From Streptomyces davaonensis JCM 4913 (lineage in GTDB: Bacteria > Actinomycetota > Actinomycetes > Streptomycetales > Streptomycetaceae), in assembly GCF_000349325.1 (NCBI RefSeq), contig NC_020504.1:8908326-8972325 (forward strand): a stretch of 64,000 nt of DNA. Reading direction: 5' to 3'. The notes below the pieces were generated by a model, which was not told where the DNA came from, ran no database searches, and saw only the letters and a program-made list of their open reading frames with translations. Below, piece after piece: positions 24,269 through 56,240 of the stretch (position 1 is its first letter; each line of letters begins with the position of its first letter). The position numbers and the translations under genes were made by a program.

Positions 24269-24281
24269 CGGCGTACGGTCC

Positions 24282-27280: not shown

Positions 27281-27913
27281 TCAGCTGCGCGGCTTGCTGG
27301 GTTCCGTCATGGGCCCGAGGCTCCCCAGGTGGCCGAGCACATAGTCCTTGGTCTCCAGGTAGCCGGAGTTGTGCGGGGTGACGAAACCGCCCCAGGGGAC
27401 GCGCTGGACCTCCAGGCCCGCGGTCTCCAACGCCGAGATTTTCAGGGGGTTGTTGGTGGCGAGTCTGAGTCGCACGACACCGAACTCGCGCAGTACCGCG
27501 GCGGCGTCGGTGTAGTCGCGATCGTCGACCGGCAGTCCGAGCGCCAGATTGGCCTCGGCGGTGTTCATGCCCTGCTCCTGAAGGGCGTAGGCCCTGATCT
27601 TGTTGGCGAGGCCGATCCCGCGGCCCTCATGGTCCAGCAGATAGAGCAGGATGCCGTGGTCGCTCTCCAGCACGGCGTCGAGCGCTGCGGACAACTGGCT
27701 GCCGCAGTCGCAGCGCAGCGAGCCGAGGATGTCGCCGGTCGCGCACGCGCTGTGCAGCCGGACGAGGGGCGCGCACTCCTCGGCGCGCTCGGTCCGGTGC
27801 ACCGCCGCAATGACACTCTCGGGACCATTTCTCGCCCTGCCGAAAACGTGCAACCTCACCTCTCCGCCGGAAATCGGCAATGTGCAGCTGGCCTGGCTGA
27901 CGATATGCGGCAT
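27281..27913 (-). CDS. ribA: GTP cyclohydrolase II
   Basis: 210 residues from ATG 27913. The zinc ligands of RibA are present (Cys57, Cys68 and Cys70 in CATGDILGSLRCDC), followed by HEGRGIGLANKIRAY and LRLATNNPLKISAL. The enzyme opens the imidazole ring of GTP to give the diaminopyrimidine that starts riboflavin (and toxoflavin-type) biosynthesis. It is a stand-alone RibA, not the RibBA fusion found in actinobacterial rib operons, and it has no ribD or ribH beside it. A DHBP synthase (55584) and a riboflavin synthase (29918) lie elsewhere in the window, so this is part of a cluster-borne flavin set. Confidence 0.95.
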   Translation of the reverse strand: MPHIVSQASCTLPISGGEVRLHVFGRARNGPESVIAAVHRTERAEECAPLVRLHSACATGDILGSLRCDCGSQLSAALDAVLESDHGILLYLLDHEGRGIGLANKIRAYALQEQGMNTAEANLALGLPVDDRDYTDAAAVLREFGVVRLRLATNNPLKISALETAGLEVQRVPWGGFVTPHNSGYLETKDYVLGHLGSLGPMTEPSKPRS

Positions 27914-28037
27914 GGGATTCCTTCAGGGCGCGCGAAATGTCACGGCGTACGGATCCTCTTCCCAAACCAGGTTACAAGCGGTTTCGGGCAACAGAATACG
28001 AGTCGGATTTCTGACGTGAAACCGTTCATCGGTCCGT

Positions 28038-28058
28038 CCGATATGGCGGACATATCGG
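28038..28058. promoter_or_regulatory. Palindrome in the ribA / GGT divergent intergenic region
   Basis: CCGATAT (28038-28044) and ATATCGG (28052-28058) form a perfect 7-bp inverted repeat around GGCGGAC. It is the clearest symmetry in the 357-bp gene-free stretch 27914-28270, which must hold promoters for the divergent ribA-led and GGT-led operons. No riboswitch fold was recognised here. Confidence 0.4.
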
Positions 28059-28270
28059 TCAGTTCCGACGAGTCGCGTTCAACTGCCCAGGTGAGCGGGC
28101 GCGTCGTTCGGCCAATCTCCCGGAAGCGCTTACTCGTAAGGGTGATGACAGCCCCCACGGTTCCTCCATAAGGTCGGCCGGGTGGACGCGACTTCCATTC
28201 TTCTCCGCCGCTCAAGAGAATCAGGTCATCCGGTTTTTTGGACCGTCGATCCCACTTCGGTGGTGTGGCC

Positions 28271-29872
28271 ATGCGGGTGATTCTCCGTGATCGCCAACAG
28301 TGGGGGAGCCGGGGCGTCGTGTCGGCCGGCTCCTCGGCCGCCGCCCTCGCCGCGCTGAGCGTCCTGGACGAGGGCGGCACGGCCTTCGACGCGGCGATCA
28401 CCGCCTCGGCGTTCCTCACCGTCGCCATGCCGATGGCTTCGGGACCGGGCGGCGACGCCACCGCCGTGCTGCACCCGCGCGGGGAGGGCGCCCCGCTCGC
28501 CCTGCTCGGCCTCGGCCGGGCCCCGCTCGCCGCCGGACCGCGGGCCTTCGAGGAGCGCGGACTGGACGGCGTGCCCCGCACCGGCATCCTCTCGGTCACC
28601 ACCCCCGGACTGCTGGACGCCTGGTACGCGGTCCACGAGCGCTTCGGCACCCTCCCGCTCGCCCGGCTCCTGCGCCCCGCGGCCCGGGCCGCCGCGGACG
28701 GCGCGGTGATCACCGGCCAGTTCCAGCGCTGGACCAGGGATAACCTCCAGGTGCTGGAGCAGCCGGAGTTCCACGAGGTCTACCGGCGCGCCGGTGAGCG
28801 GGAGTCCGTGGGCAGCCGCCTGCCCCAGCCCGGCCTCGCCCGCCTGTACGACAGAGCGGGCCGCTCCGGCCGGGCCGAACTGCGGGACTGGATCGCCGTA
28901 CTGACCGGCGAGTCGAGCGAGCACCTCGGTGGCCTGGTGCGCGGCGAGGATGTGCGCGCCACCACCGCCCGCCTGGTCCCCGCCCTGGTCGGGGAGGTGG
29001 CCGGACGGCGCGTAGCCGTACCGCCCGCCCCCACCCAGGGGCCGCTGATGCTCCAGAACCTGCTGCTCTACGAGGCGTTACGGGCCGAGGGCGAGCGCAC
29101 CGACTCGGCTGCCGGAGTCCATCTCCTCGCCGAGGCCGTCCACCAGACCTTCGGCTGGCGCCTGGACCACCTCGGCGACCCCGACGCCGACGGACCGCCC
29201 CGGCCCGACCCCCTCGACGAGCGGACCCTCGCAGGGCTCCGGCGCGGCATCGACCCTGACAAGCGCAGTCCTTGCCGGTACGCCGGTCACTACTCGCACG
29301 GCGACACCACCCACTTCGTCATCGCCGACGGCTCCGGCAACGCCGTGACCTGGGTGCAGAGCCTGGGCCTCGGCTTCGGCGCGGGGGTCGGGCCCGCGGA
29401 GGCGGGACTGCTGCTCTGCAACCGCCTGGGTCGCAGTACGACGCTGGATCCGCGCCACGCCAACCAGGTCAGGCCCGGCGCGCGGCCCGTCAACACCATC
29501 TTCCCCTGGACGATCAGCGAGGGCCCGGACGTCCGCTGGCTGGGCGGAACACCCGGCGGCGACGGTCAGTGCCAGTGGAACACCCAGGTCGCGGCGGCCC
29601 TGCTGTTCGACGACAGCACCCCGCTGCGCGCGCTGTCCGGGCCGCGCTGGACCTACTTCCCCGGCAGCGACCGCATCGAGGCCGGACGCCCCGAGCAGCT
29701 CCACGTCGACGAGACGATGCCCGAGGAGACCGTGGCGGAACTGGTGCGCCGGGGCCATGAGGTCGTGCGCAAGGCGAGCGTCGGCGGGGTCAACCGGGTG
29801 GTCGGCGGCCACGGCGGCGCGCTGTACGGGCTGGACGACGGACGGCAGGAGGGGCTCACGGCGGCCCTGTGA
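28271..29872 (+). CDS. Gamma-glutamyltransferase-family Ntn hydrolase
   Basis: 533 residues from ATG 28271; the frame opens slightly earlier. It begins with the GGT-type SAGSSAAALAALSVLDEGGTAFDAA segment and has the autocleavage/catalytic motif GDTTHFVIADGSGNAV, with Thr346 as predicted nucleophile of the small subunit, and the late GGTPGGDGQCQW oxyanion segment. There is no signal peptide, so unlike classical GGT it is probably cytoplasmic. Homologues in natural-product clusters remove gamma-glutamyl protecting groups or hydrolyse amides. A TTA codon is at 29078-29080. It is first in a plus-strand run with riboflavin synthase and transporter genes. Confidence 0.85.
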   Translation: MRVILRDRQQWGSRGVVSAGSSAAALAALSVLDEGGTAFDAAITASAFLTVAMPMASGPGGDATAVLHPRGEGAPLALLGLGRAPLAAGPRAFEERGLDGVPRTGILSVTTPGLLDAWYAVHERFGTLPLARLLRPAARAAADGAVITGQFQRWTRDNLQVLEQPEFHEVYRRAGERESVGSRLPQPGLARLYDRAGRSGRAELRDWIAVLTGESSEHLGGLVRGEDVRATTARLVPALVGEVAGRRVAVPPAPTQGPLMLQNLLLYEALRAEGERTDSAAGVHLLAEAVHQTFGWRLDHLGDPDADGPPRPDPLDERTLAGLRRGIDPDKRSPCRYAGHYSHGDTTHFVIADGSGNAVTWVQSLGLGFGAGVGPAEAGLLLCNRLGRSTTLDPRHANQVRPGARPVNTIFPWTISEGPDVRWLGGTPGGDGQCQWNTQVAAALLFDDSTPLRALSGPRWTYFPGSDRIEAGRPEQLHVDETMPEETVAELVRRGHEVVRKASVGGVNRVVGGHGGALYGLDDGRQEGLTAAL

Positions 29873-29917: not shown

Positions 29918-30397
29918 ATGGATCGCATCGGAGTCGTCGACACCATGTTCGCGCGCGTCGACATGGGATCGATCGCCGAGCGCAGGCTCGCCGGGATGGA
30001 GGGATTCGGTGCCCGTTTCAAGGTCGTCCGGCGCACCGTGCCGGGGTTCAAGGACCTCGCGGTGGCCGCCCGTCAGCTGATCGAGCGGGAGAACTGCGAG
30101 GTCGTCATCGCCTGCGGGATGCCGGGCGGCGCCGAGCTGGACCAGGTCTGCGCGCATGAGGCGGCGCAGGGGATCATGCTCGCCCAGGTGCTGACGGGCA
30201 AACACATCCTCGAAGTCTTCGTGCACGCCCAGGAGGAGCCGGATCCGGCCAGGCTCACCGAGCTGTGCCGCCACCGTGTCGGCTCGCACGCCTTGAACGC
30301 GTATTGGCTGCTGTACGCGCCCGAGGAGTTGCGCAAGAGAGCCGGCCAGGGCATTCGACAGGGCGGCCCGGACGCCGGACCCCTCCCGGGGGCGTGA
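29918..30397 (+). CDS. ribC: Archaeal-type riboflavin synthase
   Basis: 159 residues from ATG 29918, with GAAGGGG upstream. The sequence follows the archaeal RibC pattern closely: IGVVDTMFARVDMGS, RRTVPGFKDLAVAARQLI, IACGMPGGAELDQVCAHEA, LAQVLTGKHILEVFVH and a C-terminal SHALNAYWLLYAPEE. The archaeal enzyme is paralogous to lumazine synthase and converts two 6,7-dimethyl-8-ribityllumazine molecules to riboflavin. It is unrelated to the trimeric RibE normally used by Streptomyces. Its occurrence here indicates transfer or specialised use. The symbol follows archaeal usage. A role in a modified lumazine/flavin reaction is possible. Confidence 0.88.
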   Translation: MDRIGVVDTMFARVDMGSIAERRLAGMEGFGARFKVVRRTVPGFKDLAVAARQLIERENCEVVIACGMPGGAELDQVCAHEAAQGIMLAQVLTGKHILEVFVHAQEEPDPARLTELCRHRVGSHALNAYWLLYAPEELRKRAGQGIRQGGPDAGPLPGA

Positions 30398-30534: not shown

Positions 30535-31419
30535 GTGTTCCCACGAAGTGCCACGCGCGACACGTCGCGATCCGAAGCAGACAACCAAGAGAGTGTCACA
30601 GCCGACGAGTCCGAGAGCGCTCGATCGATCGGCCCGGAGAAAAGTACCGGGAGACAGAAATCGCGGCGCCGCTCAAATGGCCGCGGTATCGGCATCCTGG
30701 CACCACTCCTGCTCGGATTGCTCCTGGTCGCTCTCTGGGACGCCGTAACCCGCTTCGGCGCCGTCTCCACATTCTTCCTGCCCACTCCCTATTCCATTGC
30801 GAAGGAGCTGGTAAGCCAATCGCAGGACGGTTTTCTGCTCGACTACCTCGCACAGACCGTGACCGAGAGCGTCGCGGGCAGTGCGCTGGGTCTGGCCGTC
30901 GCCCTCCCGCTCGCCTACCTCATCGCCCGCAACCGCGTGGCCGCCGCCGCCCTTCAGCCCTATGTGGCCGCCTCCCAGGCGGTGCCCGCGGTGGCGCTCG
31001 CCCCGCTGCTCGCCCTCTGGTTCGGCTACGGGCTGCTGCCCATCGCCGTCCTCTGCGCCCTGCTGGTGTTCTTCCCGATCCTGGTCAGCACGGTCGTGGG
31101 GCTGCGGCAGATCGACCCGGACGTCATGAACGCCGCACGGGTCGACGGGGTGGGCCGGGTGCAGATGCTGCGGCACATCGAGTGGCCGCTCGCCCTGCCG
31201 AGCACCCTCGCGGGCATCCGGGCCGGTCTCACCCTCTCCGTCACCGGAGCCGTCGTCGGCGAGTTCGTGGTCGGCGGTGACGGCCTCGGCCAGCTCCTGA
31301 CCGTCCAGCGCAGTGAGGCGGACACCGTCGGCCTGTTCGCCACCCTGTGCGTCCTGACCCTCCTCGCCGCCTGCTTCTACGGCCTGATGCTGCTGCTGGA
31401 GCGCTGGGCGCGCTGGTGA
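30535..31419 (+). CDS. ABC transporter permease (RibX/SsuC/ThiX type)
   Basis: 294 residues from GTG 30535 with a moderate AGGGACGG upstream. A polar N-terminal extension of ~50 residues precedes six hydrophobic segments and the EAA loop (DVMNAARVDGVGRVQMLRHIEWPLALPS), typical of nitrate/taurine/thiamine-precursor/riboflavin permeases. It is followed by an NMT1-like lipoprotein but no ATPase gene is found in the window. This matches RibXY-like riboflavin or pyrimidine-precursor importers, in which the ATPase may be shared. A small hairpin TTGCG/CGCAA lies at 30491-30505 in the leader. Confidence 0.85.
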   Translation: MFPRSATRDTSRSEADNQESVTADESESARSIGPEKSTGRQKSRRRSNGRGIGILAPLLLGLLLVALWDAVTRFGAVSTFFLPTPYSIAKELVSQSQDGFLLDYLAQTVTESVAGSALGLAVALPLAYLIARNRVAAAALQPYVAASQAVPAVALAPLLALWFGYGLLPIAVLCALLVFFPILVSTVVGLRQIDPDVMNAARVDGVGRVQMLRHIEWPLALPSTLAGIRAGLTLSVTGAVVGEFVVGGDGLGQLLTVQRSEADTVGLFATLCVLTLLAACFYGLMLLLERWARW

Positions 31420-31502
31420 CCCAACGCCGCGGCGGCGCGGCACACCTCCCCTACCCCTGCCCTCAGAACCGGATTGACGTGCCATCAGAAAGAGCTCAGT
31501 CC

Positions 31503-32561
31503 ATGAGAGTTGTCACCGGATCCGCCGTCCCGCGCCGCCGCTTCGTCACCGCGGCCGCCGCCGTAGCCCTGCTGGCGACGACCCTCGCGTCCTGCGCCGA
31601 GGAACCGAACGCCGACGACAAGAGCGACGCAGGCGGAGGCGGCACCACCTCGCTCACGCTCGGCCTCACCTACATCCCGAACATCCAGTTCGCGCCCTTC
31701 TACGTGGCCGAGGAGAAGGGCTACTACAAGGACGCCGGACTCGATGTGACGCTCCATCACCACAGCGCCAGCGAGGACCTGTTCGGCGGAGTGAAGGCGG
31801 GCAAGGAGGACCTCCTCATCGCCGGCGGCGACGAGATCGTCCAGGGCCGTGCCGGTGACATTCCGGTCGTCAACGTCATGACGCTCTACAAGAACTACCC
31901 GGTGGCCCTGCTGGTCCGGGACGACTCCTCCATCAGCGATGCCGCCGGTCTGAAGGGCAAGACCATCGGGGTCCCGGGACCGTACGGCGAGACCTACTTC
32001 GGTCTGCTCGCACTGCTCGCTGAGGGCGGGCTCACCACCGAGGACGTGGACGTGAAGTCCATCGGCTACACCCAGCAGGCGGCCCTCACCGCCAAGCGGG
32101 TCGACGGAGTGATGGGCTTCGTCAACAACGACCAGGTCCAGTTCGAGCAGGCGGGCCTGGACGTACGCGCCGTCCGGCTGGCGGAGGGGACCGACGGCGC
32201 CCCCCTGATCTCGTCGGGCATCGGAACCTCCGACAGCTTCCTGAAGAAGCGCCCCGACGATGTACGGAAGTTCGTGGCGGCCACCTTGCGCGGTGTCGAG
32301 TTCACCCTGGCCAACCCCGAGGAAGCGATCGAGCTGAGCCGCGCCCACATCCCCACGCTGAAGGACGCCAAGAGCGAGGCCTCGGCGCTGGCGGTGCTGA
32401 AGGCGTCGGCGCCCCTCATCCGCGGCAGCGGTGGACGGCTCGGGGAGAGCGACCCGCAGACCTGGAGCCGCATGGCGGACTTCATGAAGGAGACGGGCCT
32501 GATCAAGAAGGAGATCCCTGCCGAACAGGCCTACACCAACGACTACCTGCCCAAGGAGTGA
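31503..32561 (+). CDS. NMT1/THI5-like substrate-binding lipoprotein (RibY-like)
   Basis: 352 residues from ATG 31503. The signal peptide has a twin-arginine-like PRRRFVTAAAA start and a lipobox LASC (Cys at ~31), so it is exported and lipid-anchored. The body matches NMT1/THI5 binding proteins (YIPNIQFAPFYVAEEKGYYKDAGLDVTL, IAGGDEIVQGRA). Family members bind thiamine pyrimidines, sulfonates or, in RibY, riboflavin. Given riboflavin synthase two genes upstream and an FMN-reductase-like gene downstream, a flavin-type ligand is the best guess. Confidence 0.87.
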   Translation: MRVVTGSAVPRRRFVTAAAAVALLATTLASCAEEPNADDKSDAGGGGTTSLTLGLTYIPNIQFAPFYVAEEKGYYKDAGLDVTLHHHSASEDLFGGVKAGKEDLLIAGGDEIVQGRAGDIPVVNVMTLYKNYPVALLVRDDSSISDAAGLKGKTIGVPGPYGETYFGLLALLAEGGLTTEDVDVKSIGYTQQAALTAKRVDGVMGFVNNDQVQFEQAGLDVRAVRLAEGTDGAPLISSGIGTSDSFLKKRPDDVRKFVAATLRGVEFTLANPEEAIELSRAHIPTLKDAKSEASALAVLKASAPLIRGSGGRLGESDPQTWSRMADFMKETGLIKKEIPAEQAYTNDYLPKE

Positions 32562-32623: not shown

Positions 32624-33397
32624 ATGGCTCTCAAGGCTCTCATTCTCAACACCACTCTGCGCCGGTCACCCAGCCGCTCGCAGACCCAGGGACTCATCGA
32701 CAAGGCGGTCCCCCTCTATGAGAAGGAAGGGATTGAGACCGAGGTCGTCCGTGTCATCGACCATGACATCGAGCAGGAGTACTGGGACGACTACGACGAC
32801 TGGAACGCCGGCGAGAAGGCGCGCCGAGAGGACGAGTGGCCCTGGCTGCTGGAGAAGATCAGGGAGGCGGACATCCTGGTGATCGCCACCCCGATCACCC
32901 TCAACATGTGCACCTCCGCCGCCCACGTCATCCTCGAGAAGCTCAACCTCATGGACGAGCTGAACGGCGACACCAAGCAGTTCCCGCTGTACAACAAGGT
33001 CGCGGGGTTACTCATGTGCGGCAACGAGGACGGCGCCCACCATGTCGCCGGCACCGTGCTGAACAACCTCGGACGGCTCGGCTACAGCGTGCCGCCGAAC
33101 GCCGCGGCGTACTGGCTCGGCCCGGCCGGCACCGGCCCCGGCTACATCGAGGGCAAGGGCGACCGGCACTTCCACACCAACAAGCTGATCCGCTTCATGG
33201 TGGCCAACACCTCCCACCTGGCCCGCATGCTCCAGGAGACCCCGTACACCACGGACCTGGAGGCCTGTGCCCAGGCGGCCCGGGAGGAGAGCGACGACGT
33301 GTTCGCGATCCGGGTCAACGTGAACACCCCGGCCATCCGCTACAAGCGGTTCCAGAAGCTCGGTGAGGTCAAGGTCGAGGAGAGCCAACTCGGCTGA
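32624..33397 (+). CDS. Flavodoxin-like / NADPH-dependent FMN reductase family protein
   Basis: 257 residues from ATG 32624, with GGAAGGAACGAG upstream. It has a flavodoxin-like fold: N-terminal LILNTTLRRSPSRSQTQGL phosphate loop, ADILVIATPITLNMCTSAAH flavin-binding strand, and VAGLLMCGNEDGAHHVAGT, as in NAD(P)H-dependent FMN reductases. A C-terminal extension of ~70 residues follows the fold. It could reduce FMN for a cluster oxygenase or act on a flavin-like product. A TTA codon is at 33008-33010. It is the last gene before a clear terminator at 33410-33437. Confidence 0.85.
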   Translation: MALKALILNTTLRRSPSRSQTQGLIDKAVPLYEKEGIETEVVRVIDHDIEQEYWDDYDDWNAGEKARREDEWPWLLEKIREADILVIATPITLNMCTSAAHVILEKLNLMDELNGDTKQFPLYNKVAGLLMCGNEDGAHHVAGTVLNNLGRLGYSVPPNAAAYWLGPAGTGPGYIEGKGDRHFHTNKLIRFMVANTSHLARMLQETPYTTDLEACAQAAREESDDVFAIRVNVNTPAIRYKRFQKLGEVKVEESQLG

Positions 33398-33452: not shown

Positions 33453-33902
33453 TCAAGGGATTTCGACGTCGTCGTCGGAACGGCCGTCCAGAAAGTAGAG
33501 CGCGGCCTGGGTGCGGTCCGTGGCACCGATCTTGGTGTAGATCGCGCTGAGATGGTTCTTGACGGTTTTCTCGGAGATGGCGAGATTCTGCGCGATCCTG
33601 CGGTTGCTCATCCCCTCGGTGATCAGCCGCAGCACGTCCGTCTCCCGGGACGTCAGCCGCCGTACGCCGCCCTCCGGGGGCCGGACGGGGACCACCGCGA
33701 CCTGGTCCGCTCGCATCGCGTAGAGCGCGGCCTGGGTACGGCCGGTGGCGCCGATCTTGGCGTAGATGGTGGAGAGATGGTTCTTGACGGTCTTTTCGGA
33801 GATCCCGAGAATTCTGGAGATCTTTCGATTGCTCATCCCTTTGGGCACGAGCCGCAGAATGTCCAGCTCTCGGCGCGTCAGATTGCTCGTGGATAAGTCC
33901 AA
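33453..33902 (-). CDS. Tandem double-HTH LuxR-type regulator
   Basis: 149 residues from TTG 33902, preceded by GAGGAGAAGAC; no better start exists upstream. The whole protein consists of two LuxR/GerE helix-turn-helix domains: residues ~8-65 (LTRRELDILRLVPKGMSNRK...SEKTVKNHLSTIYAKIGA) and ~85-143 (LTSRETDVLRLITEGMSNRR...SEKTVKNHLSAIYTKIGA). They are joined by a short Pro/Val linker and have no receiver or ligand domain. The two halves are about two-thirds identical and the DNA repeats as well, indicating internal duplication. The third codon is TTA (33896-33894), so bldA control is likely. It is divergent from the PPTase gene. Confidence 0.83.
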   Translation of the reverse strand: MDLSTSNLTRRELDILRLVPKGMSNRKISRILGISEKTVKNHLSTIYAKIGATGRTQAALYAMRADQVAVVPVRPPEGGVRRLTSRETDVLRLITEGMSNRRIAQNLAISEKTVKNHLSAIYTKIGATDRTQAALYFLDGRSDDDVEIP

Positions 33903-34050
33903 GTCTTCTCCTCGGGCACTTTTTGCGCAACGAGGGGATTGTCGCGCAAGCCACCCTGGAATATCAAGGCAAGTCAGCGACAAGAGAGTTGGCGGGAATT
34001 CGATCTCGGTGCTCTTGTCGCCGCATTCTGTTCCTGGGACGGTCGGGGCC

Positions 34051-34731: not shown

Positions 34732-34840
34732 ACTCCCGCCGGGGACCGGGACGTTGGTCCTATTTACCGGCGCCGGAAGGCGATGCAAAGCTCAACCACC
34801 ACGCGAGCGGCGGCTCATCGGGACGACGGAAGGGATCGCC

Positions 34841-37395: not shown

Positions 37396-37898
37396 TGGGC
37401 GAGCGGGTCGAGCTGCCCTGGCTCGACGAGCCCACGTTCCGCTGCTTCGGCTGTTCCCCGCGCAACCGTATCGGGCTCGCCCTGGAGATGTTCCGTACCG
37501 ACGACGGAGGGCTCGCCACCGACGTCACGTTCACCGACGAGTACGCCTCCTACCCCGGCGTGGTGCACGGCGGCATCGTGAGCGCCCTCGTGGACGAGGT
37601 GATGGGCGACCTCATCGCCCTCGACCGGGGCATGCTGGCGTTCTCCGTCACCCTGCGCACCAAGTTCCTGCGGCCGCTGCGGACCCGGTGCCCCTATCGC
37701 GCGGTCGCCCGGATCGGCCGGGAGGGCAACGGCGTGGTGCACACGGAGGCCGACGTCCTCGCCCCGGACGGCGAACCGCATGTCATGGCGAGCGCCGCCT
37801 ACCAGCCCATCAGCTCCCAGCAGGCCGCCGACCACATGGGCCTGCCCGCCGAGGACCGCGAGCGCCTCGCCCACTACTTCGACCACGCGATTGGATGA
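37395..37898 (+). CDS. Hotdog-fold (PaaI/4HBT) thioesterase
   Basis: 167 residues from ATG 37395, sharing one base with the preceding TGA (TGATG). FRCFGCSPRNRIGLAL is the cysteine-containing N-terminal motif of PaaI-like thioesterases, and GVVHGGIVSALVDEVMGD carries the catalytic acidic residue in the hotdog helix. It hydrolyses acyl-CoA or acyl-ACP thioesters, perhaps editing stalled acyl-ACP. It overlaps the ACP gene by 4 bp. Confidence 0.88.
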   Translation: MGERVELPWLDEPTFRCFGCSPRNRIGLALEMFRTDDGGLATDVTFTDEYASYPGVVHGGIVSALVDEVMGDLIALDRGMLAFSVTLRTKFLRPLRTRCPYRAVARIGREGNGVVHTEADVLAPDGEPHVMASAAYQPISSQQAADHMGLPAEDRERLAHYFDHAIG

Positions 37899-42488: not shown

Positions 42489-42621
42489 TGACGGGGGCAG
42501 TTTCGGACAACCTGGCCGGTGTTCATTGAGGAAGATCCGGCAGGGATTTAGGGTCGCTGTGGAATTGCTGGATCCCTCTTCTCGTCCGATGGCCACAATG
42601 CGATGGCCGTAAGAGGTGCGA

Positions 42622-43596
42622 ATGCAGGCTTCCGAATCAGCGTCCGCCATCGCCGTCGACGACCTCACCCGAACCTTCCGAGGCCCCCAGGGCGGGGTGA
42701 AGCGTGCGGTCGACGGTCTGTCGCTCCGTGTGGAGCGCGGCGAGATGGTCGGGCTGCTCGGGCCCAACGGAGCCGGCAAGACCAGCACCGTCAAGATCCT
42801 GATGACTGTACTGCTGCCGACCTCGGGGCGGGCCCGGGTCCTCGGGCACGACGTGGTGGCCGAGGCGCAGACCGTGCGCCGCCTCACCGGCGTCATCCTC
42901 GGCGGCGACCAGGGCCTGTACGCCCGTCTCTCGGCCCGGGACAACCTGCTCCTCTTCGCCGACCTGTACGGGCTGCCGTACCGGGAGCAGAAGCGGCGGG
43001 TGCCCGAACTCCTCGACATGGTCGGCCTGTCGGGGGAGGCGCGCAAACGCGTCGAGTCCTACTCCCGGGGCATGAAGCAGCGGCTGCACATCGCGCGCGG
43101 ACTGCTGCACGACCCGGACGTGGTCATCCTGGACGAGCCGAGCAACGGCATCGACCCGGTCGGCGCCCGCGAACTGCGCACCCTCGTCCGCGAACAGGTG
43201 CACCAGGGCCGGACCGTGCTGCTCACCACCCACTACATGTTCGAGGCCGACGAACTGTGCGACCGCGTGGTGGTGATGCGCGACGGCCGGAAGATCGCCG
43301 AGGGCACCCCCGAGTCCCTGAAGAAGCAGACCGACGGCCAGGTCGTGCTCACCGTGCACCTCAACGGCGCCGGAGAGGACGACGTGGCCCGGGTGCGCGC
43401 GCTGCCCGGCATCCAGTCGGTGAGCCTGTCCGACCGGGACGCCGGCCAGGTGCTCGACGTCCACAGCGGGCTGAAGACGGATGTGACCGCCGCCGTACTG
43501 GCCGAACTGCGCGGGGTGTCCGTCCTCCAGGTCTTCAAGCGCGAACCCACCCTGGAGGACGCCTACGTCTCCCTCATCTCGGGAGCGCCCCGGTGA
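42622..43596 (+). CDS. ABC exporter ATP-binding protein (DrrA type)
   Basis: 324 residues from ATG 42622, with AAGAGG upstream. Walker A LGPNGAGKTSTVK, signature YSRGMKQRLHIARGLL, Walker B DVVILDEPSNGIDP, and a C-terminal extension of ~100 residues, as in drug exporters of the DrrA family. It is coupled (GTGA) to two ABC-2 permease genes. It likely powers export of the cluster product or gives self-resistance. Confidence 0.92.
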   Translation: MQASESASAIAVDDLTRTFRGPQGGVKRAVDGLSLRVERGEMVGLLGPNGAGKTSTVKILMTVLLPTSGRARVLGHDVVAEAQTVRRLTGVILGGDQGLYARLSARDNLLLFADLYGLPYREQKRRVPELLDMVGLSGEARKRVESYSRGMKQRLHIARGLLHDPDVVILDEPSNGIDPVGARELRTLVREQVHQGRTVLLTTHYMFEADELCDRVVVMRDGRKIAEGTPESLKKQTDGQVVLTVHLNGAGEDDVARVRALPGIQSVSLSDRDAGQVLDVHSGLKTDVTAAVLAELRGVSVLQVFKREPTLEDAYVSLISGAPR

Positions 43597-44396
43597 CGGC
43601 GTCGCCGACGAACCCCGGCCCCCGCGCGACGGCCGGGTACCTGCTGCGCGCCTGGCGCCTCGAACTGCGCCAGCTCGTCCGCACCCGCCTCTACGTCTTC
43701 CTCGCCGTCTTCCTGCCGCTGATCTGCGCCTCGCTGGCCTTCTACATGCTCGACGGCTCCGAGCGCGACATCGCCCCCGTCTCGGTCGCGCTGAGCGCCG
43801 GACTCATGGGCATGTGGTCCTCCACCCTCCTCGGCTCCGGCAACGCCATCAACCGGCTGCGCTGGATGCAGGTCCTCGAACCGCTGGTCGCCAGCCCCCG
43901 CTCCACCTTCTTCATCACCCTGCCGTTCGCCCTCGCCACCGCCACCCTCGGCGTGTACGGTCTGGCGGCCACCCTCGCGTGGAGCGCCCTGCTGTTCGAC
44001 ATGCCCCTGCACCTGGCCGACCCGGCGCTGTTCCTGCTGGCACTGCCCGCCACCGTGCTCGCGCTCGGCATGCTCGGCCTGCTGCTCTCCTCCGCGTTCA
44101 TCCTGTACCCGACCGCCCAGTCGCTGGCCAACTTCTTCGAGTACCCGGTGTGGATGCTCAGCGGCATGCTCGCCCCGATCTCCACTCTCCCCGAGCCCGT
44201 CCGGGTCATCTCCTGGTGCCTGTCGCCCACTTGGGGAGTCAAGGCCCTGGAGGGCGCGGCGCTCGGCACCTCCGGGGCGGCCCGCGCGGCCGGCATGTGC
44301 GTGCTGCTCTCCGCCGTCTACGGCGCCCTCACCCTGCTGTTGCAGAGGAGGTTCGAGTGGATGGCACGCTCCAGCGGCACGCTGGCCCTTCAGTGA
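43593..44396 (+). CDS. ABC-2 type permease 1
   Basis: 267 residues from GTG 43593, overlapping the ATPase stop. Six hydrophobic segments are spread over the length, with the ABC-2 segment YPVWMLSGMLAPISTLPEPVRVISWCLSPTWG in the last third. It pairs with the ATPase and the next permease as a heteromeric drug exporter. Confidence 0.88.
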   Translation: MTASPTNPGPRATAGYLLRAWRLELRQLVRTRLYVFLAVFLPLICASLAFYMLDGSERDIAPVSVALSAGLMGMWSSTLLGSGNAINRLRWMQVLEPLVASPRSTFFITLPFALATATLGVYGLAATLAWSALLFDMPLHLADPALFLLALPATVLALGMLGLLLSSAFILYPTAQSLANFFEYPVWMLSGMLAPISTLPEPVRVISWCLSPTWGVKALEGAALGTSGAARAAGMCVLLSAVYGALTLLLQRRFEWMARSSGTLALQ

Positions 44397-45169
44397 CCCT
44401 CCGGCTCTTCCTCGTCGCGGGCTGGCGCTCCCACCTCGCCCTCTTCCGATGGCTGCGGCCCTCCGCCTTCATCCCGACCGTCATCGGCGTACCTGTGGTG
44501 CAACTGATCTGGTTCGCCCACCTCGGCCGCTACCTGGGCACCCACCCGGTCGCCTACTACGTCGTGGGCAACGCGCTCATCTCCTGTGCGATGGCGGGCC
44601 TGTTCGCGCCATCGATGTCGATCCAGGGCGAACGCCACAGCGGCACGCTGAACGCGCTGCTGGCCAGCCCGGCCAACCGCGCCGTCATGTTCAGCGGCCG
44701 GATCGTCCCGGCCGTCCTGATCGGCGCCTTCACCTCAACGCTCATGCTCGCCTTCGGCGTGGCCCTCGGCTGGGTGGTCATCCCCGCCGCCGCCCTGCCC
44801 GGCCTGACCGCCGCCGTCCTGGTCACCGCCCTGTCGTGCAGCGCCTGCGGACTGGTCATCGGCGCGATCGGGCTGCGCACCCGCGAGGCGACCTTCGTCT
44901 CCAACGTGGTGCTGTACGCCCTGCTCCTGCTCTGCGGGGTGAACATCCCCCTCGACCGGCTGCCCGACCGGCTCGCCCTCATCGGCCACGCGATGCCCAT
45001 GACCCAGGGCATCGAGGCGGCCCGCCGGGCCCTCGCGGAACAGAGCGGGGTGGCGGGCCTGCTCGGCTGGGAGCTGTCCAAGGCCGCCGTCTACATCCTG
45101 CTGGGCCTGCTCCTGCTCCGGGTCCTGGAACGGATGAGCCGGGCCTCCGCCACCCTCGACGACGTATGA
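44393..45169 (+). CDS. ABC-2 type permease 2
   Basis: 258 residues from GTG 44393, overlapping the previous stop. It has six hydrophobic segments and the ABC-2 region (LLLLCGVNIPLDRLPDRLALIGHAMPMTQGIEAAR). It is distinct from permease 1, so the exporter is probably a heterodimer in the membrane. The free condensation domain gene starts 11 bp after its stop. Confidence 0.88.
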   Translation: MTLRLFLVAGWRSHLALFRWLRPSAFIPTVIGVPVVQLIWFAHLGRYLGTHPVAYYVVGNALISCAMAGLFAPSMSIQGERHSGTLNALLASPANRAVMFSGRIVPAVLIGAFTSTLMLAFGVALGWVVIPAAALPGLTAAVLVTALSCSACGLVIGAIGLRTREATFVSNVVLYALLLLCGVNIPLDRLPDRLALIGHAMPMTQGIEAARRALAEQSGVAGLLGWELSKAAVYILLGLLLLRVLERMSRASATLDDV

Positions 45170-45179
45170 GGAAAGGGAC

Positions 45180-46523
45180 ATGACCACCACGTCGGCTGTC
45201 GACCGCGCCCCTCTGACGTACGGCCAGCTCTCGGTCCGGCGGGTCATGACCGACTGGCCGCTCGACCGTTGGCCCGAGACCTATCTGAGCACCGTGATTC
45301 CCGTGCCGCCCGACTGCACGCACACCCAGGTGACGGCGGTGCTGCACACCCTGTGCGCCCGCCACGAGTCACTGCGCACCCGGTTCGTCGACCAGGAACA
45401 GTACGTGATGCCGGTCCCGGACCGGGTGGACGTGGCGGTCGTCGAGCGGCCCGGCGCCGGCCGGGCCGAGGCCGAAGCGGCGGGCCGGGAGCGGGCGAGC
45501 CGACCCATCGACCGGGAGCGGGAGTTCGCCCGCCGCTTCACCGTGGTCACCGACGGTGGGCGTCCGGCATACGCGGTCATCGTCGTCGACCACATCGTCG
45601 CCGACGGCTACGGCCTGGCCCGGCTGCGCACCGAGGCTGCCGCGTTGATGGGAGCCGAGGACCCGGACGGCAAGCGACTGCTCGACGAAACACCGGCTCA
45701 GCCAAGGGACTTGGCCCGCCATCAACGCTCCGCCGCCCAGCGCCCCCGCCGCGAGGCGGCCCTCGGCTACTGGCGCGACCTGCTGCGCACCCTGCCGGAA
45801 GGGCTGTTCCCGGTGTCGGACGAGGCCGGTCACCACCCCGGCCGCATCGAGGCCGTCCTCCACTCGCCCGGCGCCCGTTCCGCCCTCGGTACGGCGGCTC
45901 ACCGGCTGGGCGTACCGCCCCAGGCCGTCCTCCTCGCCCTCACCTCCCTCGCCACGGCGGCCGTGACCGGAACCGAACGGGTCGTCCACACCCTCCAGTC
46001 GAGCAACCGCTTCACCACACCCTGGCGCACCATCGTCAGCTCCATGAACCAGTACGTGCCCCTGCCGCTGGAACCCGGCGCCGCCCCCTTCGAGCGGTAC
46101 GCCCGGCGCGTCCACGGCGCCGCCCTGAAGGCGTACCGCTGCGGCACGTACGACCTCGACGCGGTGACCGAACTCGTCCGCGCCGAACGGGGGATCGCGC
46201 TCGGCTTCGACCACTTCTTCAACTTCATGGCCCATGACGTCCCCACTGATGCGCAGGACGCCTGCGGGCCTCGCCGCATAGAGGCGACCACCCCGTACCG
46301 CCAGATCGGCCCGCGCCTGGACGTCAAGGTCCGCGGCGGCCCCGACATGCCACTCGTCGTGCGTGCCGACCCCGGACTCCTTCCGCAGCCGGGCCTGCAC
46401 GCGCTGCTCGCCTGGTACGACGACGAACTGCACCGCCTGGCGGCCGACGGCCCGAAAGCCACCACGACCGACGAGCTGCTCGGCCGCTGCCGGTCCACGC
46501 TCCCGTCCGAGGCCCGATCATGA
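45180..46523 (+). CDS. Stand-alone condensation-domain protein
   Basis: 447 residues from ATG 45180, with GAGGAAAGGG upstream. It has a chloramphenicol-acetyltransferase-like NRPS C-domain fold. The catalytic motif is VDHIVADG near residue 138 (HHxxxDG with D for the first H; the second, catalytic His is kept). Late motifs are weak, so it belongs with free-standing or starter-type C domains rather than module-embedded ones. It could join the ACP-bound acyl group to an aminoacyl-T domain or load an ester. It overlaps the following NRPS gene (ATGA). Confidence 0.85.
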   Translation: MTTTSAVDRAPLTYGQLSVRRVMTDWPLDRWPETYLSTVIPVPPDCTHTQVTAVLHTLCARHESLRTRFVDQEQYVMPVPDRVDVAVVERPGAGRAEAEAAGRERASRPIDREREFARRFTVVTDGGRPAYAVIVVDHIVADGYGLARLRTEAAALMGAEDPDGKRLLDETPAQPRDLARHQRSAAQRPRREAALGYWRDLLRTLPEGLFPVSDEAGHHPGRIEAVLHSPGARSALGTAAHRLGVPPQAVLLALTSLATAAVTGTERVVHTLQSSNRFTTPWRTIVSSMNQYVPLPLEPGAAPFERYARRVHGAALKAYRCGTYDLDAVTELVRAERGIALGFDHFFNFMAHDVPTDAQDACGPRRIEATTPYRQIGPRLDVKVRGGPDMPLVVRADPGLLPQPGLHALLAWYDDELHRLAADGPKATTTDELLGRCRSTLPSEARS

Positions 46524-49500: not shown

Positions 49501-50329
49501 CACGGATGTTCCGGTGCAGGCCGTGTTCCGGTGGCCCACGGTGGCGGGGCTGGCCCGCAACCTCGCCGACGCCTCCTCCGACGGGACCGAGCCACTGCTG
49601 ACCCTCCGGTCCGGGGGCGAGGGCGCTCCGCTGTTCTTCGTCCACCCGGGTACCGGTCTGAGCTGGTGCTATCACCGGCTCCTGGAGCACGTGGACACGG
49701 ACCGCCCGGCCTACGCGCTTCAGGCGCCCGGACTGTCAGGGCGGGAACTCCCCACGGGCGTCGAGGAGATGGCGGACGACTACCTTCGCCGCATCCGGCA
49801 GATCCAGCCCGAGGGCCCCTACCACCTCCTCGGCTGGTCCCTCGGCGGCCGGATCGCCCACGCCATGGCGGTGCGACTGCGGCAGTCCGGCGAGCAGGTC
49901 GGTCTCCTCGCGCTCTTCGACAGCCACCCCACGAGCGACGACCCGGCCGACGATGACGAACTCACCCGTCAGGCCCTCGCGAACCTGTGCGATGGCCACG
50001 ACGACGTCGGCTTCGCGGAGATCCGTGCCCGCGTCCCCCTCCTGACCGACGCGGAACCCGACCGCATACGGGCTGTCCTCCAGGTCGGCGTCACCCACCT
50101 GCGCCTGGCCCAGGACTTCGTCCCGGACTGCTACGACGGCGACCTCGTCCTGCTGACGGCCCGCGGGGCCGAACCGCCGGACCTCGGCTGGAGCCGGTTC
50201 GTCACCGGCCGCGTGACCGTCGTGCCCGTCGACTGCGGCCACTACGACATGTTCACCACGGCCGTCGAGCGGACCGGTCGGCTGCTGGACCCGTTCCTGG
50301 CCGTCCCCGCACCGGAGGAGCTCTCGTGA
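46520..50329 (+). CDS. NRPS C-A-T-TE, predicted Ser module with terminal thioesterase
   Basis: 1269 residues from ATG 46520. Order: C domain (~1-430, HHIAVDG ~127-133), A domain (~455-930, [11 protein letters not shown] ~590, YRTGDIV), T domain (SGGHSLLAV ~975) and type I thioesterase ([13 protein letters not shown] ~1105, late catalytic His in CGHYDMF). Specificity residues D-V-W-H-F-S-L-V-D match serine. The TE makes this the chain-releasing protein, although another NRPS gene follows it, so gene order and assembly order differ. It overlaps the downstream NRPS (GTGA). Confidence 0.92.
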
Positions 50330-53300
50330 CCGCCGTACCGCACTTCGTGCAGCTCTGCGAGGAACAGGCCACGCGCACTCCGCACGCCATCGCCCTCCAG
50401 TGCGGTGAGGAGACCCTGACCCACACCGAACTCCACGCCCACGCCGACGACCTGGCCCGACGGCTGCGACAGCAAGGCGTGGGCCCCGAAAACCTGGTGG
50501 CCGTCTCCTTACGGCGTTCGCCTCAACTGGTCGTGGCCCTCCTGGCGGTGGCCAAGACAGGCGCCGCCTATCTGCCGCTCGACCCCGACCACCCGGCACC
50601 GCGCACCGCCCGCATCCTCGAAGACGCGGCCCCGGCCGTGCTGCTGACCGAGTCCAGCGTCCGCAACCCCGAGCAAGCCGTGCCCTGCGACCCCACTCCG
50701 GCCGTCCACGCCGACAACACCGCATACGTCATCCACACCTCCGGCTCCACCGGCCAACCCAAGGGCGTGGCGGTCACCTTCGGCAACATCACCCACCTGC
50801 TGCGCACCTTCGCCGAGCGCCTGAAGCCGACCCCACAGGACCGACTGCTCGCCGTCACCACGGTCGCCTTCGACATCGCCGCCCTGGAGATCTTCCTCCC
50901 GCTGATGACCGGCGCCCGCCTGATCCTGGCCACCGACGCCGAACACCGAGACCCCGTACACCTGTCCCGAGCCGTCGCCCGACACGGCATCACCCTGCTC
51001 CAGGCCACCCCGGCGCTCTGGCAGTCCCTGCTGGACGCCGGTCCCGTGGATCTGTCCGGAGTGCGCGCCCTCGTCGGCGGCGAGGCCCTCCACAGCGGCC
51101 TCGCCCGCGAACTGCACGCCCGCACCCGCGAGGTGACCAATGTCTACGGCCCCACCGAGACGACCGTCTGGTCCACCGCGGCGACCCTCGACCGAGAGGA
51201 CCGCCTGAACCGCCCGCCCATCGGTGCGCCCCTGGGCGACACCCGACTGTACGTGCTGGACGGGCGGCTGCGTCCCGTTCCGCTCGGCGTGTGGGGGGAG
51301 TTGTATGTCGCCGGGGCCGGAGTCGCGCGTGGGTACCGGGGGCGCGGGGATCTGACAGCGTGCCGGTTCCTGGCCGATCCGTTCGGGGGCGGCGGGCGGA
51401 TGTACCGGACGGGCGACGTCGTGCGCTGGGCCGCGGACGGCGGTCTGGAGTACTCCGGGCGCTCGGACTTCCAGGTGAAAGTGCGGGGATTCCGGGTCGA
51501 GTTGGGCGAGGTCGAGGCGGTTGCGGGCACGGTCGAGGGGGTCGGCCAAGCGGTGGCGACGGTCCGCGGGGGCGGGCGGCTGGTGGCGTACGTGGCGCCC
51601 CTGCCGGGCCGCCGGGTCACTGGTGCCGCCGTACGGCAGGCGGTGGCGGAGGTGTTGCCGGACTACATGGTGCCGTCGGCGGTCGTGGTGCTGGACGACG
51701 GGCTTCCGCTCACGGCCAACGGGAAGGTCGACCGGGTCCGTCTGCCGGAACCCGACTACGGGGCCGGGGCGTCCGGCGGCACCCCGGCCGATGATCGGGA
51801 GGCGGCCCTGTGCCGCCTGTTCGGCGCGGTGCTCGGCGTCGAAGGCGTCGGCCCCGGGGACGGGTTCTTCGACCTGGGCGGGCACTCCCTGCTCGCCGTA
51901 CGCCTGACGGCCCGGATCCGTGCCGAACTGGACCGCGAGGTGTCCGTACGGGACGTCTTCGACCACCCGACGGCCCGCAAACTCGCTGGATGCCTGGACC
52001 GCCCTGCCGCCCCACGCCCCGCCCTGCTCCCCGTACCGCGCCCCTCGCGGCTGCCGCTCTCCCACGCCCAGCGCCGACTGTGGTTCCTGGGCCGCCTGGA
52101 AGGCCCGACGGCCACCTACAACATGCCCCTCGCCCTCCACCTGCGCGGCCCGCTCGACCCCGAGGCCCTGCACGCCGCCCTGGCCGACGTGGTGGCCCGG
52201 CACGAGGCGCTGCGGACCGTCTTCCCGGAGACCGACGGAGAACCGAGGCAGGAGATCGTCGACACCCGCCCGGAACTTCGAGTCGTCGGCCCCGGCGCGA
52301 CTGACGACTTCCTGCACCGAGGCTTCGACCTGGCCGCCGAACCCCCTTTCCGCGCCCGTCTGTTACGCCTCGCCCCGCAAGACCACGTCCTCCAACTCGT
52401 CGTCCATCACATCGCCTGCGACGGCTGGTCCCTGGCCCCCCTCGCCCGCGACATCCTCACCGCCTACGACACCCGAGGCCCAGCCGCCGCACCTCTCCCG
52501 GTCCAGTACGCCGACTACACCCTCTGGCAGCACCGCCTTCTCGGCGACCCGAAGGACCCCGAGTCCCGGTATGCCCGCCAACTGGCTTACTGGCGAACGG
52601 CGTTGCACGGGCTCCCCGAGCAACTGGAGCTCCCCTTCGACCACCCCCGCCCGCCGCGCGCCTCGTACCGCGGCGCGGCCACCGGGCTGACCATCGACGC
52701 CCCGAAGCACCGCGCCCTGCACCGACTGGCCAGGGTGTCCGGCGCCACCGTCTTCATGGCCGTACGGGCCCTGATCGCCGCCCTCCTCACCCGCCTCGGC
52801 GCCGGCACCGACATTCCCCTGGGCGTCCCCGTGGCCGGCCGCACGGACCCGGCGCTGGACGACCTGGTGGGCTTCTTCGTCAACACGCTGGTGCTGCGCA
52901 CCGACACCTCGGGCGACCCGACCTTCCGGGAGCTGCTGGCCCGCGTCCGCCACACCGACCTCGACGCTCTGGCCCATCAGGACCTGCCCTTCGAGTGCCT
53001 CGTCGAGCACCTGGCGCCGCCGCGCTCGACGGCCCGGCACCCGCTCTTCCAGGTGCTGGTGGTGAGCCAGAACAACGACCGGCCGCGGTTCCGGCTGCCC
53101 GGCCTGGACATCGAGGCCGAGGAACCCCCGCTGGGCGTCGCCAAGTTCGACCTCTCCTTCAGCCTCGACGAGCGGCACACCCCCGACGCGGAACCCGACG
53201 GCATCGAGATCACCGTCGAGTACGCCACCGACCTCTTCGACGCGGCCACGGTCGACCGGATGAACGGGAGTCTGCGGCGCCTGCTGGACGCGGTCCTCGC

Positions 53301-55224
53301 CGATCCCGGGGCGCGGCTCGGCAGCCTCGACCTCCTGTCCGCGCGGGAGCGGGAGCGGATGGTCGTGGAGTGGAACGCCACCGACCGGCCCATCCCCTCG
53401 CTCAGCCTGCCCCGGATGATGGAGGCCCAGGTCGCGCGGACCCCCGAGGCCGTTGCCCTGGTCCACGAGGGTGAGTCCCTCAGCTACGCGGAGCTCAACT
53501 CGCGCGTGAACCGCATGGCCCGACTGCTCGCCGCCATGGGCGCGGGACCGGAGGAGACGGTCGCGCTGTTCCTGCCGCGCTCGGTCGATCTGCTGGTGGG
53601 TCTGCTCGGGGTGGTCAAGGCCGGTGCCGCCTATCTGCCGCTCGACCCGGACTATCCGGCCGAGCGCATCGCGTACATGCTCGACGACGCGGGCCCCCTG
53701 TGCACGCTCACGGTCACCGGCATGGCCGAGCGGCTCCCGGCCGGCGACACGACACGGACCGTCGTACTCGACGACCCCACCGTGCGCGAGACGATGGCCG
53801 GCCAGGCGGACTCCGACCTCACCGATGCCGAACGCACCACACCTCTGCACCCCGACCACCCCGTGTACGTCATCTACACCTCCGGCTCGACCGGCCGGCC
53901 CAAGGGCGTGCAGTTCCCCTCGGGTGCCCTGGCCAACCTCATGGCCTGGCACGCCGACACCGTCGGCGGCGGAGTCGGCACCACCACCGCGCAGTTCGCG
54001 TCACTGAGCTTCGACGCGGCCGCCCACGAGATCTTCTCCGCCCTCACCTCGGGCAAGACCCTCGCCGTCCCCAAGGACGACGTCCGCAAGGACACTCCCG
54101 AACTGGTCCGCTGGCTCGCCCACCACGAGGTCAACGAACTGTTCGCGCCCACCCCGGTGGTCGAGACCGTCGTCGACACGGCCCGCGAACTCGGCCTGCC
54201 GCTCCCGGCCTTGGCCGACATCGTCCAGGCGGGCGAGGCCCTCACCCTGCGACCGGCACTCCGCGACTTCTGCACCGCCGTGCCCGGCCGCCGCCTGCAC
54301 AACTTCTACGGCCCCACCGAGACCCACGTCGTCACCGCCCACACCGTCACCCAGGACGAACTGCGCTCGGGCACCCCGAGCGTCCCCATCGGAGGGCCGA
54401 TCTGGAACACGCGCGCGTATGTGTTCGACGGGGGCCTGCGCCCGGTGCCGCTCGGCGTGTGGGGGGAGTTGTACGTGGCGGGGGACTGCGTGGCCCGCGG
54501 GTACGGGGGCCGCGGAGGGCTCACCGCGGCCCGGTTCGTCGCCGACCCGTTCGGGCGGGGCGGGCGGATGTACCGGACCGGTGACGTGGTGCGGTGGCGG
54601 GCGGACGGCGTCCTGGAGTTCTCGGGGCGCTCCGACTTCCAGGTGAAGGTGCGCGGCTTCCGTGTCGAACTCGGCGAGGTCGAGGCCGTCGTCGGCGCGG
54701 TCGACGGGGTGAGCCGGGCGGTGGCGGTGGTGCGCGAGGACCGGCCGGGCGACCGGCGGCTCGTGGCCTACGTCGTCCCACCGGCCGGACGCCGCGTCGT
54801 CGGGGCCGACGTCAGACGTGCCGTGGCCGAGGTGCTGCCCGAGTACATGGTGCCCTCGGTGGTGGTCCTGGCCGACGGGCTGCCGCTGACGGTGAACGGC
54901 AAGGTCGACCGCGCCCGGCTGCCCGTCCCCGACTACGGCGCGGGCACGAGCGGCGGCACCCCGCGCGACGACCGGGAGGAGGCGCTGTGCCGACTGTTCG
55001 GCGAGGTGCTCGGCGCGCGGCGGGTCGGACCCGAGGACGGGTTCTTCGAACTGGGCGGCCACTCCCTGCTCGCCGTACGGCTGGTGGCGCGGATCCGCGC
55101 CGAACTGGGCCGCGAGCTCGCCGTCCGGGACCTCTTCGACCATCCGACCGTACGGGGAGTGGCCGGGCGCCTGGACCGGCCCGCCACCGCACGCCCCGTA
55201 CTCCGGCGCCGGGCGGGCACATGA
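50326..55224 (+). CDS. NRPS A-T-C-A-T, first module predicted Gly
   Basis: 1632 residues from GTG 50326. Order: A1 ([11 protein letters not shown] ~137), T1 (LGGHSLLAV ~520), C (HHIACDG ~694), A2 ([11 protein letters not shown] ~1183), T2 (LGGHSLLAV ~1579). There is no TE or reductase. A1 specificity residues D-I-L-Q-L-G-V-V-W resemble the glycine code. A2 reads D-A-H-F-V-A-F-V-V and is unassigned. Starting with A-T suggests an initiating protein whose dipeptide is passed to the C-A-T-TE protein. The A C-terminal subdomains and T domains of the two modules are nearly identical while the A cores differ. TTA codons lie at 50509-50511 and 52363-52365. Confidence 0.92.
51260..51980 (+). repeat. 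Duplicated A-subdomain/T segment, copy 1
   Basis: This segment encodes [12 protein letters not shown]...[13 protein letters not shown]...[21 protein letters not shown]...PDYGAG...[10 protein letters not shown]. It is highly similar in DNA and protein to copy 2 at 54430-55160, whereas flanking A-core sequences are not. Confidence 0.75.
54430..55160 (+). repeat. Duplicated A-subdomain/T segment, copy 2
   Basis: It matches copy 1 at 51260-51980 through the A-domain C-terminal subdomain and the T domain. Codon use in both copies (GGG-rich, as in gtgtggggggag) differs from the GGC-rich flanks. Confidence 0.75.
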
Positions 55225-55336
55225 TCAAACGCATTATCGGCCGAGAACCGGTGTTTATGGCCCGGAGGTGTATGGAAGAGCCTGGCGCCGTACATAGGCC
55301 TGTGGCAACATGTAGCTGCCAAATTCAATCCACACA

Positions 55337-55461
55337 ACGCAAGCGGGGTTCGGTGCAATTCCGAACCGGCGGTGAAAGCCCGCGACCCGGTCGAAGCCAT
55401 CGACCGGTTGACCCGATGGAATTTCGGGGCCGACGGTTAAAGTCCGGAAGGGAGTTTGCGT
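55337..55461 (+). promoter_or_regulatory. FMN riboswitch (RFN element) upstream of ribB
   Basis: It contains the conserved RFN blocks in order: GGTTCGGTG-AATTCCGAACC, GGCGGTGA-AG-CCGCGACCC, a variable GGTCGA/TCGACC stem, GGTTGACCCGATGGAATTTCGG, CCGACGGTTAAAGTCCGGA and GGGAG. The closing P1 is short (ACGCAA 55337-55342 with TTGCGT 55456-55461). It lies about 120 nt before the ribB start within the 359-bp gene-free stretch 55225-55583. A GC-rich hairpin (CACCGG 55481-55486 with CCGGTG 55500-55505, no T-run) follows and could be the expression platform. FMN binding would be expected to lower ribB, and perhaps downstream, expression. Confidence 0.93.
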
Positions 55462-55583
55462 GTAGTGGCATTCTGGCGTACACCGGCGCGTTCACCCGAC
55501 CGGTGCGCCCTGGGCTGTCGCGCTCCTCCGCTCCTGACCTCGCTCGCGCCTGGTGCAAGGCCATGTCGGAAGAGGAGATGGGG

Positions 55584-56240
55584 ATGTTCCCACTCGAAAG
55601 CGTCGAGGAAGCCATCGACACCGTACGGGCCGGAAGGCCGGTCGTGGTGGCGGACGACAATGACCGGGAGAACGAGGGCGATCTGATCTTCGCCGCCCAG
55701 CACGCCACCCCGGAACTGCTCGCTTTCATGGTGCGCCACACCTCGGGATATGTGTGTGCGCCATTGCCCCCGCAGGACTGCGACCGCCTCGAACTGCCGC
55801 CGATGCACTCCATCAATCAGGACCGGCGCGGCACGGCATATACCGTGACCGTGGATGCCCGGGAAGGCGTCACCACCGGAATTTCGGCCGCCGACCGTGC
55901 CCACACCATCCGGCTGCTCGCCGACCCGGCCACCACGGCCGGAGACCTGTGCCGGCCGGGCCATGTGGTCCCGCTGCGTGGCGTCCCCGGCGGCGTGCTG
56001 CGCCGGACCGGGCACACCGAGGCGACGCTCGATCTGGTACGCCTGGCCGGGTGCCGCCCGGCGGGTGTGCTGTGCGAGCTGGTCAACGACGACGGGACCA
56101 TGAAGCGGCTGCCCGATCTGCGCCGCTTCGCCGACGAGTTCGGGCTGCCGCTCATCACCGTCGCCCAGTTGGTCCAGTACCGCCGCAGGATCGGCGACAC
56201 ATACGACGTACGCGACCTCGCCATGGGCGCCGCGAGGTGA
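55584..56240 (+). CDS. ribB: 3,4-Dihydroxy-2-butanone-4-phosphate synthase
   Basis: 218 residues from ATG 55584, which has GAGGAG six bases upstream; ATG 55563 and 55578 are alternatives with poorer signals. RibB motifs are complete: [70 protein letters not shown] and CELVNDDG. It converts ribulose 5-phosphate to the four-carbon unit of riboflavin. It is a single-domain RibB with no RibA fused behind it, matching the separate ribA at 27281. It is the only gene in the window seen behind an RFN element and heads the last part of the NRPS strand. Confidence 0.95.

Follow-up and report, generated by a model that had tools for sequence, protein, structure and literature searches.

The 64,000-nucleotide stretch of Streptomyces davaonensis JCM 4913 analysed here (contig NC_020504.1, positions 8,908,326 to 8,972,325; hereafter the window) carries a set of flavin genes interleaved with non-ribosomal peptide synthetase (NRPS) and acyl-activation genes. 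The first flavin gene, ribA (27281..27913, minus strand), encodes a GTP cyclohydrolase II (GCHII; PF00925, E=2e-50, with the NCBIfam RibA subfamily model above its cut-off). It is followed on the plus strand by rosG (28238..29872), a gamma-glutamyltransferase-like gene (PF01019) named by its position from PMC11039241, and by ribE2 (29918..30397), encoding an archaeal-type riboflavin synthase (TIGR01506 at 168.3 bits for a cut-off of 100.55; PDB 2b98, E=1e-50). Next come ribX (30535..31419, plus), the ATP-binding cassette (ABC) permease (PF00528) of a riboflavin importer, a role taken from PMC11039241, and ribY (31416..32561, plus), an NMT1/THI5-like binding protein (PF09084, with PDB matches to THI5-like binding proteins) whose end lies at 32561 and whose start is uncertain (31347, 31416 or 31503). 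rosB (32624..33397, plus) encodes a protein of the FMN_red family (PF03358). Beyond the NRPS and acyl genes, a flavin mononucleotide (FMN) riboswitch (55335..55463, plus; RF00050, 105.3 bits), the sole match in the window at the Rfam gathering threshold, is located 121 bases before ribB9 (55584..56240, plus), which encodes a 3,4-dihydroxy-2-butanone 4-phosphate (DHBP) synthase (TIGR00506 above cut-off). An earlier note, made from the sequence alone, had placed these flavin genes at or near these positions and guessed their families, and Pfam, NCBIfam and Rfam matches bear it out; the NRPS and fatty-acyl-AMP ligase (FAAL) genes that it described among them are real as well. Its statement that ribD and ribH are absent holds for ribH, since PF00885 matches the genome twice, once in RibE2 and once, at 8.004 Mb, in a lumazine synthase; as for ribD, Pfam scans covering part of the window's open reading frames gave no RibD-type family, no genome-wide ribD search having been made.

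The product of the gene at 32624-33397 agrees in 257/257 residues with PDB 5mji/5mld, named 'BRAMP domain protein', and corresponds to RosB, the 8-demethyl-8-aminoriboflavin-5'-phosphate synthase. The equation of PDB 5MJI with RosB is backed by the published gene position and by P0002, an 84% identical homologue named RosB by NCBI. What had been called an FMN-reductase-like protein was thus assigned to the right family, its identity being RosB. RosB, complete with the C-terminal part that marks a rosB cluster, stands in the window at the end of the order rosG, ribE2, ribX, ribY, rosB, which is the published order of the rosB cluster in S. davaonensis, Streptomyces cinnabarinus and Streptomyces berlinensis (PMC11039241). 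The core of the locus, with its riboswitch-controlled ribB9, does not differ from the published description, and the locus is that of S. davaonensis itself. That it represents the rosB half of the genes for roseoflavin has, in our estimate, a probability of about 0.97. Production of roseoflavin by S. davaonensis has been reported (PMC11039241), and the combination of flavin genes is already described in print, as the genes of this vitamin B2-like antibiotic. The supposition that no described cluster has this combination is therefore wrong: the structures of RosB and RosA have been solved and the operon has been published (PMC11039241). Among the three roles that had been envisaged, namely lumazine or flavin units for a product, a flavin-analogue antibiotic, or extra flavin for oxidases, one, the antibiotic, is correct. 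The locus is thus a well-studied one and the additions made here are modest; comparison with a relative shows that ribA and the genes for a beta-keto acid cleavage enzyme (BKACE) and an ABC-2 exporter are retained next to the published cluster (PMC11039241), and that ribB9 is part of the conserved block.

The other half of the pathway lies downstream. RosA (C1:8990052-8991092) matches PDB 4d7k at 769.5 bits, the self-score of 4d7k being 769.1, and 48.3 kb separate the end of rosB from the start of rosA. This is a distance of the published type, the rosA cluster of S. davaonensis, made of ten genes, being described as 50-65 kb from the rosB cluster, and rosA and rosB being likewise 50-65 kb apart in S. 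berlinensis and S. cinnabarinus (PMC11039241). Directly after rosA is a histidine phosphatase gene (PF00300), which matches rosC by its position and by 85% identity in the relative discussed below, as in Table 1 of PMC11039241. RosB is the key enzyme of a synthesis that needs three enzymes only (PMC11039241). According to work by others, it converts the C8 methyl group of FMN to an amino group, and the phosphatase RosC and the dimethyltransferase RosA, encoded about 50 kb downstream, finish roseoflavin. The riboflavin supply is raised by the RibE2 synthase and the RibXY importer, as published, and the additional ribA and ribB9 probably contribute to it too. The NRPS and acyl genes that separate rosB from ribB9 would belong to another pathway, and the ABC-2 exporter encoded in the same interval, which travels with ros, may export the product.

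An informative comparison is with the genome G243, very probably that of Streptomyces sp. HUAS 2-6, since the identities equal those of Table 1 of PMC11039241, e.g. 89.49% for RosB. From a 273-kb contig of G243 (C2), 120 kb were compared with 42 gene boxes of S. davaonensis, taken from the window and from the next 36 kb downstream and including, as separate boxes, both opposite readings of 40441-42429. A block of about 28 kb (C2:100759-128858) is kept in the same gene order. Besides four genes next to ribA that are described below, it comprises ribA (82%), rosG (78%), ribE2 (85%), ribX (74%), ribY (70%) and rosB (89%), followed by an ABC ATPase (89%), two permeases (84% and 59%), the FMN riboswitch (at C2:119104) and ribB9 (87%). 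After ribB9 come fragments of unk302 and of a cytochrome P450, then genes for a radical SAM protein (90%), a B12-radical SAM protein (88%), an AMP ligase (73%), an acyl carrier protein (82%), a ketosynthase (72%), a thioesterase (83%) and RosC (85%). Although ribA is not part of the published rosB cluster, it adjoins rosG both in the window and in G243; ribA and ribB9, travelling with ros, seem to be genuine parts of it. HUAS 2-6 thus resembles S. davaonensis in its flavin set, exporter, riboswitch-controlled ribB9 and rosC, and differs in that rosA is absent (best match 35%) and in that the NRPS and acyl genes of the window, FAAL included, were not found in the 120 kb around rosB, where adenylating enzymes gave only 25-33% identity, against the AMP ligase. 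Table 1 of PMC11039241 does not list RibX for HUAS 2-6; G243 encodes it at L046:8236-9129, with 74% identity over 294/294 residues. In both the window and G243, RibX and RibY are without an adjoining ABC ATPase.

Could the genes of the window simply be the ordinary riboflavin genes of the genome, in dispersed form? They do encode real enzymes of the pathway, and ribB9 has an FMN riboswitch, but a search of the genome for a second rib operon, as the earlier note had suggested, found a separate locus at 8.00 Mb. This locus carries an FMN riboswitch and genes for a Lum_binding riboflavin synthase, a protein of the nicotinamide mononucleotide transporter family (RibM-type), a DHBP synthase-GCHII fusion and lumazine synthase. 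This housekeeping operon, ribE1MAB5H, also places riboflavin genes under an FMN riboswitch, but it differs in its bacterial-type riboflavin synthase, its fused DHBP synthase-GCHII and its RibM-type transporter; according to PMC11039241, moreover, roseoflavin does not affect the riboswitch of this operon but does affect the one before ribB9. Because this separate set exists, the rib genes of the window are extra, dedicated copies, and the view that they are not a duplicate housekeeping operon was sound; GCHII is present in four copies in the genome. TIGR01506 is found in only 2/392 Streptomyces genomes (G000 and G243), and full-length RosB occurs in the same two; the chance of two independent genome pairs coinciding is 1.3e-5, kinship being ignored. 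On the strength of the second rib set and of the rarity of TIGR01506, the housekeeping explanation was rejected and retains almost no probability.

A functional link between the flavin genes and the NRPS and acyl-activation genes had also been implied. In this explanation the two sets would form one hybrid pathway, whose product would be a lipopeptide containing a lumazine or flavin unit. The NRPS and acyl genes (33766-42429 and 45180-55224) are indeed physically interleaved with the flavin genes, the last exporter gene shares 4 bases with the first NRPS gene, and the 50-65 kb between rosA and rosB in S. berlinensis and S. cinnabarinus (PMC11039241) implies that the interval is old. The acyl module consists of 4PPT_N-like, FAAL (34754-36541), unk285, 4HBT, CMAS-like, fatty acid desaturase and MaoC-like genes, with an AMP-binding/PP-binding gene on the minus strand, and the NRPS genes, one of which lies at 46520-50329, have the domains C, C-A-T-TE and A-T-C-A-T (C, condensation; A, adenylation; T, thiolation; TE, thioesterase). 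A marker of the acyl module (36538-37395) was found in 9/392 genomes at E <= 1e-20, with the best matches after G000 in G011 (82%), G388 (60%) and G180 (49%), whose neighbourhoods were inspected, and five weaker ones at 27-30%. FAAL, unk285, 4HBT, CMAS-like and desaturase genes are clustered in G011, G388 and G180, and stretches of 18, 35 and 40 kb around them, respectively, contained none of the set's ros or rib genes (the 18 kb of G011 reach the end of its contig). Nor were the NRPS genes of the window beside the acyl module in these stretches, and the two may themselves be separable. Against a hybrid pathway stand, therefore, the flavin set of G243, kept without NRPS or FAAL genes, the acyl modules of three genomes without ros or rib genes, and the sufficiency of three enzymes for roseoflavin (PMC11039241). 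The implied link is unsupported, and the hybrid, rejected as the leading explanation on account of G243 and the ros-free acyl modules, is very improbable; the NRPS genes are probably dispensable for roseoflavin.

Several points nevertheless weigh against our interpretation of the locus. The separation of the NRPS genes from ros is drawn from one informative relative, G243, and there their loss is as possible as their insertion in S. davaonensis; whichever occurred, the flavin set is kept in G243 without them. Beside ribB9, G243 carries deletion scars, with only residues 1-138 of the P450 and residues 195-302 of unk302 left, and past these scars comes sequence that lies about 16 kb further on in S. 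davaonensis. Finally, in PMC11039241 the rosA and rosB clusters are regarded as two that are independent of each other.

The candidate exporter consists of an ABC ATPase (42616..43596, plus; PF00005, best NCBIfam model drrA, below cut-off), an ABC-2 permease (43593..44396, plus; PF01061) and a second membrane protein without a Pfam match (44449..45183, plus; 59% over residues 1-230 of 244 in G243). The roseoflavin exporter is stated to be unknown in PMC11039241, and we propose this system, from its conservation next to ros genes, as a candidate for the export of roseoflavin or an aminoflavin, and hence for the self-protection step left unknown there. This assignment is a proposal and not a result, because the 44449..45183 gene is the one that overlaps the first NRPS gene. 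The exporter could instead belong to the NRPS pathway and be a leftover in G243, which is nearly an even bet, given this overlap, the deletion scars beside ribB9, and the fact that, of the NCBIfam subfamilies, one of generic drug exporters comes closest. What speaks for ros is that all three genes are matched over their full or near-full length in G243, directly before the riboswitch and with no NRPS remnant between the two, and that no such exporter was found around the acyl module in the stretches of G011, G388 and G180. Between its rosB and the conserved exporter, G243 also has genes for a further ABC-2 transporter (an ATPase and two ABC2_membrane_6 proteins) and a GH31 protein (L046:11219-16172).

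On the other side of the locus, a glycosyltransferase (23102-24313, 68% in G243), a major facilitator superfamily (MFS) transporter (24282-25559, 67%, best piece residues 24-240), a methyltransferase (25556-26374, 66%) and the BKACE (26371-27225, 90%), all assigned by Pfam and on the minus strand, are kept beside ribA in the same order in G243, where the MFS gene is spread across three frames. The BKACE is as conserved in G243 as RosB and has no obvious step in roseoflavin synthesis. Taken together, these comparisons suggest a broader proposal, which we hold tentatively and consider somewhat more likely to fail than to stand as a whole. The ros locus would be one island from BKACE/ribA to rosC, with its own ABC-2 exporter for roseoflavin or aminoriboflavin; the two-cluster picture would be incomplete; and RibE2 would come from a bacterial source of the Actinomycetota/Dormibacterota type, not directly from archaea. 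Such an island would be compact in G243 (about 28 kb) and stretched over about 60 kb in S. davaonensis by unrelated lipopeptide genes.

RibE2 resembles archaeal riboflavin synthases and was probably acquired by horizontal transfer (PMC11039241). Its homologues number 1800 at E <= 1e-30; among the best 120 of these, the 15 with an organism name come from Streptomycetaceae (3), Dormibacteraeota (2) and other Actinomycetota, including Acidimicrobiales (10), and none is an archaeal source. RibE2 scores 253 bits with the Dormibacteraeota protein P0147 (72-73% identity), versus 174.9 bits with the archaeal-type 2b98. For RosB, 16 similar proteins were found at E <= 1e-60; 15 of them cover 96-100% of RosB at 57-90% identity, with alignments that run through the C-terminal part, the sixteenth being 50% identical over 87%. 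A search with the 52 C-terminal residues of RosB had matched five strains only (PMC11039241), and RosB-like proteins are, by these alignments, more diverse than that paper reports; those at 57-90% identity are material for mining other 8-aminoflavin pathways. Some RosB match at E <= 1e-20 is present in 237/392 Streptomyces genomes, but among the matches listed the best after G000 and G243 are at most 46% identical and stop at about residue 205. When 395 relatives were searched with RosB at E <= 1e-70, the match was to G000 alone, and scans of genome contigs with RosB and with alignment A1, from which records of the own genome or near ones may be left out, confirmed as relatives 0/84 and 0/49 pattern matches. 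A literature search of open-licence PMC papers found neither an identified roseoflavin exporter nor a RosB family of such breadth.

Downstream of the window, six genes of the rosA cluster (radical SAM, B12-radical SAM, AMP ligase, acyl carrier protein, ketosynthase and thioesterase; L011:11208 to L012:1486) form a module that recurs in G247 and G365, where the 35-kb stretches compared contain no ros gene; judged by this distribution, it may be unrelated to roseoflavin. The idea that the eight unassigned genes of the rosA cluster signal a larger flavin product was dropped, as six of the eight are those that recur without ros. Directly after rosC, G243 has GNAT-family and ATP-grasp genes (L047:8916-11362), perhaps for another modification of aminoriboflavin, whereas S. 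davaonensis has PhyH and AHSA1 genes. Within the window, the region 3039-16894 contains polyprenyl synthetase, undecaprenyl-synthase-like and O-methyltransferase genes, two BTAD regulators, an A-T-TE protein (10525-14355), a pyridoxal-phosphate enzyme and an ATP-grasp ligase, and is possibly another biosynthetic cluster upstream. Between it and the glycosyltransferase gene, 20137-22620 encodes an extracytoplasmic function-type sigma factor with a SnoaL-like domain, a second FMN_red/flavodoxin-like protein (21253-21867) and a protein of metallo-beta-lactamase fold; the sigma factor and the second FMN_red protein have matches of 64% and 72% on the G243 contig, away from ros.

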